The translations under genes were made by a program, and so were the position numbers. Below are positions 54,107 to 60,884 of a stretch of 64,000 bases of DNA, piece after piece. Source of the stretch: Halomonas cerina. Its GTDB lineage: Bacteria; Pseudomonadota; Gammaproteobacteria; Pseudomonadales; Halomonadaceae. Within the stretch, counting starts at the first letter, position 1; each line of letters starts with the position of its first letter. The stretch covers positions 1-64,000 of the forward strand of contig NZ_JACHXP010000013.1 in assembly GCF_014192215.1 (NCBI RefSeq). Reading direction: 5' to 3'. The notes beneath the pieces are model-generated. The model was not told where the DNA came from and did no database searches. It saw only the letters and a list, made by a program, of their open reading frames with translations.

Positions 54107-54901
54107 CTAGAAGTGCGGCTTGAGCTGCTTGACCAACGCCTTGTAGAGGCGGGGGCCGGCGGCCATCAGCTGGCTTTCGGGCGTTACCGAAGGCTGGCCG
54201 TCGGGGGTGCCCATCAGCGCGCCGGACTCCTTGAGCAGCAGGGTCCCGACGTGCATGTCCTGCTCCTCCAGGCCCAGCACGAAGGCTGCCTCGACCCGCC
54301 CAGCAGCCAACTCGGCCAGGTCCAGCAGGCCACTACCCGAGGCGCGCTGCACCTCGATCTGCGGTGCGAGCTGCTCGACCAGGGTCAGGTAGGCGGGCAG
54401 CAGGCGGGCACGCAGCCAGGTCTCCGGCAGGCTCATGGCGATGCGGCTGCCGGCAATCGCCGTGCTCCTCGGCACGCGGATGCGCTTGCCGTTGAGCTGG
54501 GCACCGCGGCCACGGCTGGCCAGGTATTCATCATCGCTGAAGGGGCAGATCACCACCGCATGCTCCGGGCGGCCCTTGACCAGGCAGACCAGCGACAGCG
54601 CGAAGCTGGGCGAGGCGACGCACAGGTTGGAGTACCCATGGAAGGGTTCAATGCGCCACAGCACGTCGCTACCCTCGCCTTCCCCGCTGCGATGGGGGGT
54701 ATAGCGACCGACGACGCCATGCTGAGGGTAGCCGCGAGATAGCTGACGGGTGATCAGCGTCTCGGCGTTGCGGGCGGCGTCCTCGAGCAGGCGGTCGAGG
54801 TTGTGTTCTTCATGGGCGTTCTCGATGCGCTCGCGGATACGCAGGAACTGTTCGCCGGCGCTGCGCGCGGCGCGCAGCGCAAATTGGACCATCGGATGCA
54901 T
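54107..54901 (-). CDS. suhB: SuhB-like protein lacking inositol-monophosphatase metal ligands
   Basis: The 264-residue length, the start MHPMVQFALRAARSAGE, the sequence YPQH, GAQLNGKRIR, and AELAAGRVEAAFVLGL, and the neighbour trmJ all identify the SuhB orthologue. The active site is not kept. E. coli motif TEESG (metal ligand E67) reads GRYTP, and WVIDPLDGTTN (D84 and D87) reads WRIEPFHGYSN with Glu85 and His88. The W-D of PWDFAAG reads QDMHVG, with Asp215 kept. Catalysis is therefore very unlikely. SuhB also acts with Nus factors in rRNA antitermination, a role that does not need the phosphatase activity. Confidence 0.85.
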   Translation of the reverse strand: MHPMVQFALRAARSAGEQFLRIRERIENAHEEHNLDRLLEDAARNAETLITRQLSRGYPQHGVVGRYTPHRSGEGEGSDVLWRIEPFHGYSNLCVASPSFALSLVCLVKGRPEHAVVICPFSDDEYLASRGRGAQLNGKRIRVPRSTAIAGSRIAMSLPETWLRARLLPAYLTLVEQLAPQIEVQRASGSGLLDLAELAAGRVEAAFVLGLEEQDMHVGTLLLKESGALMGTPDGQPSVTPESQLMAAGPRLYKALVKQLKPHF

Positions 54902-55082
54902 GATCGGGCCTTGGGGAGTCGGTGGTGTTAAAGAACGGGGCTTTCGCTCGGAACGATGGCGCGAATCCTAGCAGAGCCCGGCCCGTAGCGCCACGGCCCT
55001 TGCCCCTCGGCGCTCGGCGCTCGGCGCTCGCAACATGCTAGACTCCCATTCCTGCCGTTCCACCAGCCTCACAGGAAGTTTC

Positions 55083-55841
55083 ATGCTCGACCGCATCCGC
55101 ATCGTCCTGATCGGCACCAGCCACCCCGGCAACATCGGCGGCACGGCCCGCGCCATGCACAACATGGGCCTCTCGGACCTGGCCCTGGTGGCCCCGCGCT
55201 GCAAGGCGATCACCGCCGACAGCGTCTCCCGGGCTTCGGGCGCCGACCGCCTGGTGCACGACGCTCGAGTGGTGGCCTCCCTCGAGCAGGCGGTGGCGGA
55301 CTGCACCCTGGTGGTGGGCGCCAGTGCCCGCTCGCGCACCCTGCCCTGGCCGATGATCACGCCTCGCCAGCTCGGCAGCCAGCTTCCCGAGGAGCTGGCC
55401 GACCCCGAGGCCCACGTGGCCCTGGTCTTCGGCCGCGAGGACAGCGGACTGACCAATGCCGAACTGCAACGTTGCCATGCCCACGTGCATATCCCCACCA
55501 ACCCGGACTTCAGCTCGCTGAACCTGGCCGCCGCCGTGCAGGTGCTGGCTTACGAGTGTCGGCTCGCCTGGCTCGAGGGGCGCCCGAGTGATGCCGACAC
55601 GGCCTCCGCCTCCGCCCTGGCCAGCCATGCGGAGCTCGAGCACTACTTCGCCCACCTGGAGCGTACTCTGATCGATATCGGCTTCCATGACCCGGCGACC
55701 CCCCGCCAGCTGATGGCCCGACTACGCCGCTTCACCCTGCGCGCCCGGCCGGAGCGCATGGAGCTCAACATCCTGCGCGGCATTCTCACCGCCACGCAGC
55801 AGCAGGCCGAACGCGCCACCGGCGACGACGGGACGCCTTGA
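55083..55841 (+). CDS. trmJ: tRNA (cytidine/uridine-2'-O-)-methyltransferase TrmJ
   Basis: A 252-residue SPOUT enzyme that methylates the ribose at tRNA position 32. It begins [36 protein letters not shown] (SPOUT motif 1), has [18 protein letters not shown] (motif 2) and [24 protein letters not shown] (motif 3 of the knot). AGGAAG precedes ATG 55083. It is divergent from suhB, the usual arrangement. Confidence 0.95.
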
Positions 55842-56787: not shown

Positions 56788-56813
56788 CCACGCTACTCGG
56801 TCTTTACCATAAT
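56781..56813 (+). promoter_or_regulatory. iscR promoter with type-1 IscR site
   Basis: TTGACC (56784-56789), an 18-base spacer and CATAAT (56808-56813) form a promoter. The sequence GGTTGACCACGCTACTCGGT across the -35 closely resembles the E. coli iscR operator AGTTGACCAATTTTACTCGG, so the [2Fe-2S] form of IscR probably represses its own operon. The site overlaps the cysE stop codon. Confidence 0.7.
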
Positions 56814-56898
56814 GTCGGTTCGACCCGACCTCTCCCAGGGACGTCGGCACGCTTCCATCGACCGCCGACCCACGCGTCGTCGCCGAGGTAACTTCCTC

Positions 56899-57369
56899 AT
56901 GCGCCTGACCACCAAGGGACGCTACGCCGTCACCGCCATGCTCGACCTGGCGCTGAATGCCAATGCCGGCCCGATCAGCCTCGCCGATATCTCGCGCCGA
57001 CAGGAGATCTCGCTGTCCTACCTCGAGCAGCTGTTCGCTCGCCTGCGGCGGGCGCGCCTGGTGGAGAGCGTGCGCGGCCCCGGTGGCGGCTACCTGCTGG
57101 CCATGGCGCCGGAGACAATCACGGTGGCCCGGGTCATCGATGCCGTCAACGAGTCGGTGGACACCACCCGCTGCGGGGGGTTGTCGGACTGCCAGCAGGG
57201 CGATACTTGCCTGACCCACCACCTGTGGAGCGAGCTCTCCGAGCAGATCCACGGCTTCCTCGAGAGCGTCACCCTGGGCCAGCTCGCCGGACGCCCCGAC
57301 GTCCAGGCGATCGCCGGCCGCCAGCGCCGCCGGCAGGACGGCGACACCATCCTGGCCTCGTCGCCCTGA
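56899..57369 (+). CDS. iscR: Fe-S cluster assembly regulator IscR
   Basis: A 156-residue Rrf2-type repressor. [19 protein letters not shown] is the standard start, followed by the winged helix ([21 protein letters not shown]) and the cluster site with Cys92, Cys98 and Cys104 plus His107 ([19 protein letters not shown]), the same numbering as E. coli. It senses cluster supply and controls this operon. A start at 56812 was rejected because it adds a low-similarity head. GAGG precedes ATG 56899. Confidence 0.95.
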
Positions 57370-57409
57370 GCGACCGGCCGCTTCACCTCCAGAATCCTCA
57401 AGCGAGCCC

Positions 57410-58567
57410 ATGAGCGCACCCGTCTATCTCGATTACGCCGCCACCACCCCAGTCGACCCACGGGTTGCGGAGGTCATGAGCCGCCACCTGACCCTGGACG
57501 GCATCTTCGCCAACCCCGCCTCGCGCAGCCACATGCCCGGCTGGCAGGCGGAACAGGCCGTGGAAGTCGCCCGTCGCCAGGTCGCCGACCTGATCGGTGC
57601 CGACCCCCGCGAGATCGTCTGGACCAGCGGCGCTACCGAGGCCGATAACCTGGCACTGACCGGCTTCATGCGCGCCAACCGGGCCCGCGGCCGCCACCTG
57701 ATAACCTCACGCATCGAGCACAAGGCCGTGGTCGACACGGCGACGGCGCTGGAGGCCGAGGGCGTCGAGGTAACCTGGCTGACGCCGGATCGTGATGGTC
57801 GCATCGCGCCACAGCAGCTGCGCGCCGCCATGCGCGAGGACACGGTGCTGGTGTCGCTGATGGCAGTGAACAACGAACTCGGCGTCATCCACGACCTGGC
57901 GGCGCTGGCCGAGGTGGCCCATGCCGGGGGCGCCGTCTTCCATACCGACGCCGCCCAGGCGGTGGGGCGCCTGCCCCTGGACGTGACGCGTCTGGGCATC
58001 GACCTGATGTCGCTGTCCGGCCACAAGGCCTACGGGCCCAAGGGCGTCGGCGCCCTCTATGTCCGGCGCGACCCGGACCTGCGCCTGGAGGCGCTGATCC
58101 ACGGCGGCGGCCACGAGCGCGGCATGCGCTCCGGAACCCTGCCGACCCACCAGATCGTCGGCATGGGGGAAGCCTTCACCCTCGCCGGTCGCGAAGGCGA
58201 GGCCGACCAGGCACGGATCCTCGCCCAGCGCGACCGCCTGCTGGCCGGGCTCGAGGGGCTGGAGGGCATCCATCACAACACGGCTCTCGACGTGGCGGTG
58301 CCCAATATCCTCAACCTGGCCTTCGAGGGCGTGGATGGCGAGTCGCTGCTGATGGCTCTGCGCGACATCGCGCTGTCCACCGGGTCGGCCTGCAACTCGG
58401 CCAGCGTCGAGCCATCCTATGTTCTGAAGGGCATCGGGGTGCCGCGGCACCTGGCACTGGCCTCGCTGCGCATCAGCCTCGGCCGCTTCACCACCGAGGA
58501 CGACATCGACCGGGCCATCGAGGCCCTGCGACACGCCTTCACCGGCCTGCGTCGTCAGACGTCCTGA
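57410..58567 (+). CDS. iscS: Cysteine desulfurase IscS lacking the C-terminal tail
   Basis: A PLP enzyme that takes sulfur from cysteine. Motifs include YLDYAATTPVDPRVAEVM, FTSGATE-like WTSGATEADNLAL, the PLP lysine in SLSGHKAYGPKG, and the catalytic cysteine in STGSACNSASVEPSYVLKG. It stops after ALRHAFTGLRRQTS at residue 385, while E. coli IscS (404 residues) goes on with SPLWEMYKQGVDLNSIEW, the tail involved in IscU contact. This fits with absence of iscU downstream. It is otherwise clearly IscS rather than SufS. Confidence 0.92.
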   Translation: MSAPVYLDYAATTPVDPRVAEVMSRHLTLDGIFANPASRSHMPGWQAEQAVEVARRQVADLIGADPREIVWTSGATEADNLALTGFMRANRARGRHLITSRIEHKAVVDTATALEAEGVEVTWLTPDRDGRIAPQQLRAAMREDTVLVSLMAVNNELGVIHDLAALAEVAHAGGAVFHTDAAQAVGRLPLDVTRLGIDLMSLSGHKAYGPKGVGALYVRRDPDLRLEALIHGGGHERGMRSGTLPTHQIVGMGEAFTLAGREGEADQARILAQRDRLLAGLEGLEGIHHNTALDVAVPNILNLAFEGVDGESLLMALRDIALSTGSACNSASVEPSYVLKGIGVPRHLALASLRISLGRFTTEDDIDRAIEALRHAFTGLRRQTS

Positions 58568-58593
58568 TCCACCACCGCTTGCAGGAGAACAGC

Positions 58594-58920
58594 ATGGCGC
58601 ACCTTTCGATCACCACTTCCGCCGCCGAGCAGATCCGCCGGGTGCTCGAGGAGCGTGGCCACGGCCTGGGCCTGCGGGTCTCGGTCAAGCCCAGCGGCTG
58701 CTCGGGCTACAGCTACGTGCTCGACTTCGCCGACGAGGCGGCCAATGACGACGTGGCCTTCAAGGAACACGGCGTCAGTGTCTTCGTGGCCCCCGAGGCC
58801 CTGGAGATGCTCGACGGCAGCGAGGTCGACTACGTATCCGAGGGCCTGAACCGGTACTTCCGCTTCAACAACCCCAACGTCAAGGACCAGTGCGGCTGCG
58901 GCGAGAGCTTCAGCGTCTGA
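58594..58920 (+). CDS. iscA: A-type Fe-S carrier IscA
   Basis: A 108-residue HesB/IscA protein with the three conserved cysteines: [13 protein letters not shown] (first) and DQCGCGESF (second and third). It binds and passes on iron or Fe-S clusters. AGGAGAA precedes ATG 58594. In other gammaproteobacteria iscU stands between iscS and iscA; here the two genes are 26 bases apart. Confidence 0.93.
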
Positions 58921-58969
58921 AGCCGCCAGGTGGTCGTCGTCAGAGTCGTGTGTTCGGGGCTACTCCGTC

Positions 58970-59054
58970 GACAGGTCTTCGAGGGGGCGCTGTGAACCCC
59001 TCCATGGGCGCTACCGATTCCATCCCTGGAATAGGACCCCCTCTTCGGCCTGTC
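58970..59054. repeat. Possible Halomonas-type intergenic repeat
   Basis: An element of about 85 bases with imperfect dyad symmetry: GACAGG and AGGGGG at the left, CCCCCT and CCTGTC at the right, and a core CCCTCCATGGGCGCTACC. From memory, very similar CCATCCATGGGCGCTAC motifs recur between genes in Halomonas-related genomes, like REP or BIME elements. Only one copy is visible here. It fills the gap left after iscA and before ndk. Confidence 0.45.
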
Positions 59055-59109
59055 CCCGGCGCTCCTCGCTTGTGCAATGGCGACGCCCCTCGTCGGAACC
59101 GGAGCGCGA

Positions 59110-59139
59110 TTGTTTATCGCCGCCCCGGGGCGGTATACT
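59110..59139 (+). promoter_or_regulatory. ndk promoter with palindromic GC spacer
   Basis: TTGTTT (59110-59115) and TATACT (59134-59139) are spaced by 18 bases. The spacer contains the perfect 14-base palindrome CCGCCCCGGGGCGG (59120-59133). The region explains transcription of ndk and the following genes apart from the isc promoter. Confidence 0.55.
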
Positions 59140-59267
59140 CTGCGCCCAGTCGGCGCCCGGCGCCGCGCCGCTTGATTCGCCACGCCGCGCCGTCCCCGCC
59201 TCCTCACCGGAGCACGGGGGCGGCGCGGCGTCATCCCGTACTTCCTTTTAACCGGAGATATGCCCCC

Positions 59268-59696
59268 ATGGCCAACCAGCGCACCCTGTCCATCATCAAG
59301 CCCGACGCCGTCGCCAAGAATGTGATCGGCGAGATCGAGAGCCGCTTCGAGAAGGCCGGCCTCAAGATCGTCGCCGCCAAGATGCTCCAGCTGTCTCAGG
59401 AGCAGGCCGAAGGCTTCTACGCCGAGCACAAGGAACGCCCCTTCTTCAAGGACCTGGTGGGCTTCATGACCTCCGGTCCGGTGGTCGTGCAGGTGCTGGA
59501 GGGCGATAACGCCATCGCCGCCAACCGCGACCTGATGGGCGCCACCAACCCCAAGGAAGCCGAGGCCGGCACCATCCGCGCCGACTACGCCCAGTCCATC
59601 GACGCCAACGCCGTTCACGGCTCCGACTCACCGGAATCCGCCGAGCGCGAGATCGCCTACTTCTTCGAGGACAGCGAGATCTGCCCGCGCGGCTGA
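59268..59696 (+). CDS. ndk: Nucleoside diphosphate kinase
   Basis: A 142-residue enzyme that phosphorylates nucleoside diphosphates. [27 protein letters not shown] and the active-site His in [20 protein letters not shown] are diagnostic. ATG 59268 follows GGAGATATGCCCCC. The usual upstream neighbour iscX is absent. It is followed by rlmN, as in related bacteria. Confidence 0.96.
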
Positions 59697-59756
59697 TCGC
59701 CTGTCACCGGCGGGGGGCTCCCACCCCCGCTCAGCCCCACCGACCCGCTGACTGCC

Positions 59757-60884
59757 ATGACCGCCATCCCTGCTCCGCAACGCACCAACCTGCTCGGCAT
59801 GACGCGCGAGGAGATGGAAGCCTTCTTCCTCTCCATCGGCGAGAAGAAGTTCCGTGCCACCCAGGTGATGAAATGGATCCACCACGAGGGCTGCGCCGAC
59901 TTCGCGGCCATGACCAACCTGTCCAAGGCGCTGCGCACGCGACTGGCCGAGGTCGCCGAGATCCGGGGCCCGAGGGTGGTCTACGAGGGCACCTCCAGCG
60001 ACGGCACCCGCAAGTGGGTGCTGGAGGTGGAGGACGGCAGCTACGTGGAGACGGTGCTGATCCCCGCCGAGAACGGCAAGCGCCGCACGCTGTGCGTGTC
60101 CTCCCAGGTCGGCTGCTCGCTGGACTGCAGCTTCTGCTCCACCGGCAAGCAGGGCTTCCAGCGCAACCTCACCGCCGCCGAGATCATCGGCCAGGTGTGG
60201 GTCGCCAGCAACAGCGTCGGCCCCCGCAAGGACACCGCCAACCGTCCGGTCACCAACGTGGTGATGATGGGCATGGGCGAGCCGCTGCTGAACTACGACA
60301 ACGTGGTGCCGGCCATGAAGCTGATGCTCGACGACAACGGCTATGGCCTCTCCAAGCGCCGCGTCACCCTCTCCACCTCTGGGGTGGTGCCGATGCTCGA
60401 CAGGCTTGGCGACGAGCTCGACGTGAGCCTGGCCATCTCGCTGCACGCCGCCAACGACGCGTTGCGCAACGAGTTGGTGCCACTCAACCGCAAGTACAAT
60501 ATCCGCACCCTGCTCGATGCCTGCCATCGCTACCTGGCCAAGTGCGACGACACGCGAATGGTCACCATCGAGTACACGGTGATCAAGGACGTCAACGATC
60601 AGCGAGAACATGCCGAACAGCTCGCCGCGCTGCTTGAGGAACTGCCCTGCAAGATCAACCTGATCCCGTTCAACCCCTTCCCCCACTCGGGATACGAGAC
60701 GCCGTCCCGCAACCAGGTGATGCGCTTCCAGCAGTGGCTCTATGAACTCGGCTACACGGCGCCGATCCGCTCCACCCGCGGTGACGACATCGATGCCGCC
60801 TGCGGCCAGCTGGTGGGGCGGGTCAAGGACCGCACCAAGCGTCACGCCCGTTATATCCAGTCGATCCAGCTGGATGCCGACTGA
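59757..60884 (+). CDS. rlmN: 23S rRNA/tRNA adenine-C2 methyltransferase RlmN
   Basis: A 375-residue radical-SAM enzyme that methylates A2503 of 23S rRNA and A37 of some tRNAs. It has the radical-SAM triad CSLDCSFC (residues about 121-128), [18 protein letters not shown], and the methyl-carrying cysteine near the C-terminus in [14 protein letters not shown]. Order ndk-rlmN-pilW is conserved. Confidence 0.96.

Follow-up and report, generated by a model that had tools for sequence, protein, structure and literature searches.

Degenerate phosphatase sites in SuhB orthologs of Halomonadaceae and related families, and their probable retention as Nus factors

Introduction

The SuhB of Escherichia coli (structures 2QFL, 6IB7/6IB8, and 6TQN) is an active inositol monophosphatase (IMPase) with an intact two-metal site that also has a role in transcription. 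Its residues K251 and L254 contact the AR2 repeat of NusA (PMC6614801), and the phosphatase activity is dispensable for complementation in E. coli (PMC6614801); strains with IMPase-defective SuhB lack the cold-sensitive growth defect seen when suhB is deleted (PMC4807359). The suhB leader carries a boxA (consensus GYTCTTTAANA), and repression of the gene by the Nus complex has been demonstrated in E. coli and predicted for many gammaproteobacteria (Baniulyte et al., PMC5725501). The transcription role, the dispensability of the activity, and the leader boxA are therefore already known, and the inactive E. coli mutants are the laboratory precedent for the protein described here. The closest solved structure is the SuhB of Pseudomonas aeruginosa (8WIP, 8WDQ), in which the DPLDGT and EE motifs of the site are likewise intact. 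By analogy only, the eukaryotic pseudophosphatases STYX and MK-STYX, whose folds and pathways are unrelated to SuhB, kept a phosphatase fold for binding after losing catalytic residues.

Most lineages retain the SuhB phosphatase site although IMPase-dead mutants grow. A natural, clade-wide loss of this site and a co-occurring second IMPase are described below; no earlier report of either was found in a search that covered few subscription journals.

Results and Discussion

The suhB Locus of Halomonas cerina

The window analyzed here is a 64,000-nucleotide stretch of the draft genome of H. cerina (contig NZ_JACHXP010000013.1). Two of its genes are central to the comparison:

54107..54901, minus strand: suhB ortholog, IMPase fold, 264 aa (ATG at 54901, stop at 54107)
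55035..55841, plus strand: trmJ, divergent neighbor that served as the synteny anchor and the rate control

The extent of suhB agrees with that in the initial annotation, which gave no strand; the minus strand is added here. The predicted protein matches the Pfam profile PF00459 over its full length (95.4 bits against a cut-off of 27), and among solved structures it scores highest with SuhB of P. aeruginosa (174 bits), followed by that of E. coli (135 bits). The best protein family is NF008027, the NCBIfam SuhB equivalog, with a score (145.8 bits) far below its threshold of 332; the score of P. aeruginosa SuhB is also narrowly too low (323 bits). The fold was modeled with AlphaFold2 using 49 Halomonadaceae sequences as input, and the best of five models (mean pLDDT 89.7) was used alone because the remaining four reached only 47–61. 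With this model, the top Foldseek match was P. aeruginosa SuhB 8WIP (TM 0.90, 38% identity), followed by more P. aeruginosa SuhB entries and then by E. coli SuhB, including 6TQN (the rrn antitermination complex) and 6IB8 (the SuhB–NusA AR2 complex). The E. coli protein shares the fold and is similar over the full length, with 32% identity in the structural alignment.

The gene adjoins divergent trmJ, which is followed by cysE, and secD/secF lie upstream in the window. This trmJ-adjacent position, recognized as conserved in the initial annotation, is common to the suhB of every family sampled in which the site is degenerate (see below) and is found likewise among relatives of P. aeruginosa. Together with the best similarity and the grouping in a tree with SuhB of the same order, it identifies the window gene as a true suhB ortholog.

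Elsewhere in the window (56812–60884), an IscA-like ORF (58579–58920) comes after iscR and iscS, with ndk and rlmN immediately next; the genes iscU, hscB, hscA, and fdx, which are usual in the isc operon of Pseudomonas, are absent between iscS/IscA-like ORF and ndk.

Loss of the Two-Metal Site

The metal ligands scored were E67, D84, D87, and D212 (E. coli SuhB numbering). The corresponding parts of the window gene are:

54701..54706, minus strand: codons R66-Y67, in place of the E. coli E67-E68 metal site
54632..54649, minus strand: codons E85-P-F-H-G-Y90, in place of DPLDGT
54257..54259, minus strand: codon D215 (E. coli D212), the sole metal ligand kept

Relative to E. coli SuhB, the aligned window protein has E67 replaced by R66, E68 by Y67, D84 by E85, L86 by F87, D87 by H88, and T89 by Y90, whereas G88 and D212 (as D215) are retained. 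One of the four ligands is thus left, and the two-metal site with its DPLDGT and EE motifs, intact in both E. coli and P. aeruginosa SuhB, is gone. The change of DPLDG to EPFHG and of EE to RY, with at most the last aspartate kept, had been noted in the initial annotation, and the alignment agrees on each point. The missing ligands suggest that two-metal phosphatase catalysis has been lost and that these suhB genes are probably misannotated as inositol monophosphatases.

A match to the window SuhB was present in each of the 201 Halomonadaceae genomes searched. We aligned 140 Halomonadaceae sequences with E. coli SuhB, a check suggested in the initial annotation: 60 covering all 24 genus codes of the 201-genome sample, and 80 from named species of Halomonas, Billgrantia, Litchfieldella, Onishia, Vreelandella, Halovibrio, Modicisalibacter, Chromohalobacter, Salinicola, and Cobetia. 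Every one of the 140 retains at most one of the four ligands. The ligand that is left is less uniform than its replacements, the D215 position being D in 76/80 named sequences and in 50/60 of the second sample.

Breadth and Ancestry of the Loss

The comparison was widened to 245 genomes of the order. SuhB read from 38 other family codes has an intact site (the f12 sequence is partial), and all four ligands are present in each of the 48 aligned intact SuhBs, those of E. coli and P. aeruginosa among them. A degenerate SuhB occupies the same locus in seven further family codes (f6, f7, f20, f27, f38, f39, and f45), with replacement residues that differ between these families; at most two of the four ligands remain in the 25 sequences from degenerate lineages other than Halomonadaceae.

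In the tree, the degenerate SuhBs of the eight families form a single clade (support 99/97) nested within intact SuhB, and the clade was also found in a larger quick tree (SH-aLRT 97). Long-branch attraction could conceivably have brought together a few independent losses, as some of the branches in the clade are long. On a TrmJ tree taken as a proxy for the species tree, itself poorly resolved, four changes are needed, of which well-supported branches force just one. The phylogeny and the alignments point to an ancient, clade-wide loss of the active site comprising Halomonadaceae and at least seven related families. The lineage had initially been named as Halomonadaceae, which holds for all 140 sequences of that family but is much too narrow.

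Retained Parts of the Antitermination System

Two features of the window gene bear on a role in transcription:

54131..54142, minus strand: codons K254-A-L-V257 (E. coli K251 and L254), predicted NusA AR2 contact
54926..54936, minus strand: boxA GTTCTTTAACA within the 5′ leader of suhB, its first base 35 nt ahead of the start codon

The contact lysine is retained as K254, and V257 is a conservative change. At the E. coli K251 position, K or R is found in 45 of 48 intact SuhBs and 40 of 42 degenerate ones, and at the R139 position, R is found in 46/48 and 42/42, respectively. The partner is conserved as well: NusA aligns through the C-terminal AR2 in all 30 genomes compared, 27 of which have a degenerate SuhB, and the NusA of H. 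cerina has both acidic repeats. The draft genome of H. cerina gave no located rrn leader; in complete genomes of the same genus, the rrn boxA TGCTCTTTAACA lies 155–196 nt upstream of the 16S gene and again in the 16S–23S spacer. A mis-specified boxA pattern (TGYTCTTTANAA) had zero matches.

The boxA in the suhB leader, a feature shared with E. coli as is the contact lysine, matches the consensus GYTCTTTAANA exactly; no other exact match lies in the 64 kb of the window, where 0.03 would be expected. Exact leader matches occur in 80/80 named and 56/60 other Halomonadaceae (shuffled rate 0.00025), and boxA is the only block of the suhB leader that is fully conserved. Exact matches are also found in f27 and in three of five leaders of f39; they are absent from the sampled f6, f7, f20, f38, and f45 and from the Halomonadaceae genera g3 and g14, and near-matches occur where the exact consensus is missing. 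Among intact SuhB leaders of this order, 45 of 46 have no exact boxA and, unlike the window gene, neither do the three sampled genomes of the P. aeruginosa family code. The distribution of the leader boxA is therefore a strong argument for Halomonadaceae, but not for the whole degenerate clade. A promoter scan returned no sigma-70-like promoter near suhB.

We consider it likely that the window SuhB no longer performs two-metal catalysis and persists as a dedicated noncatalytic Nus factor. That the enzyme was dropped and the transcription role kept had been proposed at the outset, and the proposal gains support from purifying selection on the gene, the NusA-contact lysine, the AR2 of NusA, and boxA in both rrn operons and the suhB leader. 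The protein would dock on NusA AR2 as E. coli SuhB does and help to load NusB/NusE onto the boxA of nascent rRNA, which would support antitermination and cotranscriptional rRNA folding; in Halomonadaceae, the Nus complex would also act on the leader boxA to repress suhB. We infer this Nus function from its conserved parts, which likewise make membership of the Nus complex and autoregulation of suhB through the leader boxA predictions from comparative genomics.

The degenerate clade is the natural counterpart of the result obtained with IMPase-defective SuhB in E. coli. In at least eight families, which make up an apparently ancient lineage, the site has been lost while the gene and NusA AR2 were kept, and Halomonadaceae additionally keep boxA in their rrn operons and suhB leader. 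The two functions of SuhB have apparently been separated in nature and become separable by comparison, with the N-terminal helix, R129-G-x-G, N136, R139, and K251 (E. coli numbering) as candidate transcription-only residues. Degenerate SuhBs also provide natural proteins for complementation tests.

Invariant Residues at the Former Site

The replacement residues in Halomonadaceae are strikingly uniform. Positions 67, 84, and 87 are R, E, and H without exception in the 80 named sequences, in which R66, E85, P86, H88, and G89 are invariant, Y90 is 97% conserved, and the position of Y67 is always F or Y. Such agreement at the R, E, H, and G positions is more than chance, and the near-invariance of R66, E85, H88, and Y90 is not predicted by plain relaxation. 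The plain reading of this conservation, including that of G89, would be a salt bridge filling the old metal site; the bold reading would be a new ligand pocket.

The site may accordingly have been rebuilt, with R66, E85, H88, and Y90 forming a new ligand or catalytic pocket, perhaps beside the Nus role. An R at the E67 position in 24/42 degenerate SuhBs from several families is in keeping with this, as is the invariance itself. However, the pocket residues other than this arginine are not common to the other seven families, so a pocket function cannot extend to the clade as a whole, and an arginine replacing a metal may equally be plain structural compensation. We regard a new pocket as unlikely. 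Slightly more doubtful still is the specific version in which the Halomonadaceae pocket, rebuilt with invariant Arg-Glu-His-Tyr, would let SuhB make rRNA antitermination responsive to a metabolite that might be an osmotic-stress signal.

A Second, Intact IMPase

Besides the window SuhB, the H. cerina genome encodes two PF00459 proteins, a CysQ (assigned by TIGR01331 above its cut-off) and an intact IMPase of an orphan family, about 270 aa in length (L001, = L166; G000:C1:456464-457279). Proteins of the L001 type have 25–30% identity to the window SuhB, fall outside SuhB in the tree in a clade of their own (100/100), and keep all four metal ligands in 17 of 18 sequences; no conserved neighborhood was found for them in five genomes compared. 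Among the 245 genomes of the order, L001-type proteins (E <= 1e-57) are confined to families with a degenerate SuhB, the best L001 match in the remaining families being the intact SuhB itself or weaker, and none was found outside the degenerate-SuhB families among 299 genomes of the phylum. This restriction suggests that the second IMPase may have replaced SuhB in its enzymatic role and so freed it from constraint. The replacement is not required for a degenerate SuhB to persist, since L001-type proteins are absent from several genomes that have one. In two of high completeness (G412, 99%; G249, 100%), the degenerate SuhB (L370 and L371, respectively) is the sole PF00459 protein, so CysQ is apparently missing too.

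A second, intact suhB in the same genome, with the window copy unexpressed, had been named as one finding that would refute a separation of functions. An intact paralog does exist, and its complete ligand set and its limitation to degenerate-SuhB families could be taken to mean that it is the functional SuhB and the window copy dispensable. We consider this very improbable. The L001-type proteins share the PF00459 fold but lie outside the SuhB clade without suhB neighbors, mostly lack the NusA-contact residues (K/R at the K251 position in 2/18, R at the R139 position in 3/18), have a leader boxA in 1/18 cases, and are missing from several genomes with a degenerate SuhB, and the window suhB is itself under purifying selection. 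We therefore reject the paralog as the real SuhB on the tree, synteny, NusA-contact residues, and rarity of the leader boxA.

Selection on Degenerate suhB

Constraint on SuhB has changed. Comparisons among intact families show SuhB better conserved than TrmJ (median identity 58% vs. 51%); among degenerate families the relation is reversed (33% vs. 53%). Within Halomonadaceae, 56 SuhB columns are invariant across the 80 named species, and the median dN/dS of suhB is 0.17 over 431 within-genus pairs. A decaying pseudogene or sequencing artefact, which the fast evolution of degenerate SuhB relative to trmJ might suggest, can be dismissed for Halomonadaceae given this dN/dS, the identical replacement residues in 80/80 named species, and full-length open frames among the matches listed.

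A Probable Separate Loss in Family f40

The SuhB catalytic site has also been lost in genus g99 of family f40, represented by two genomes (loci L156/L387 in G303 and L388 in G353), in one of which the degenerate suhB lies between secF and trmJ. Because four other f40 genera have intact SuhB, this looks like a separate loss. The K251 position is R in the g99 protein.
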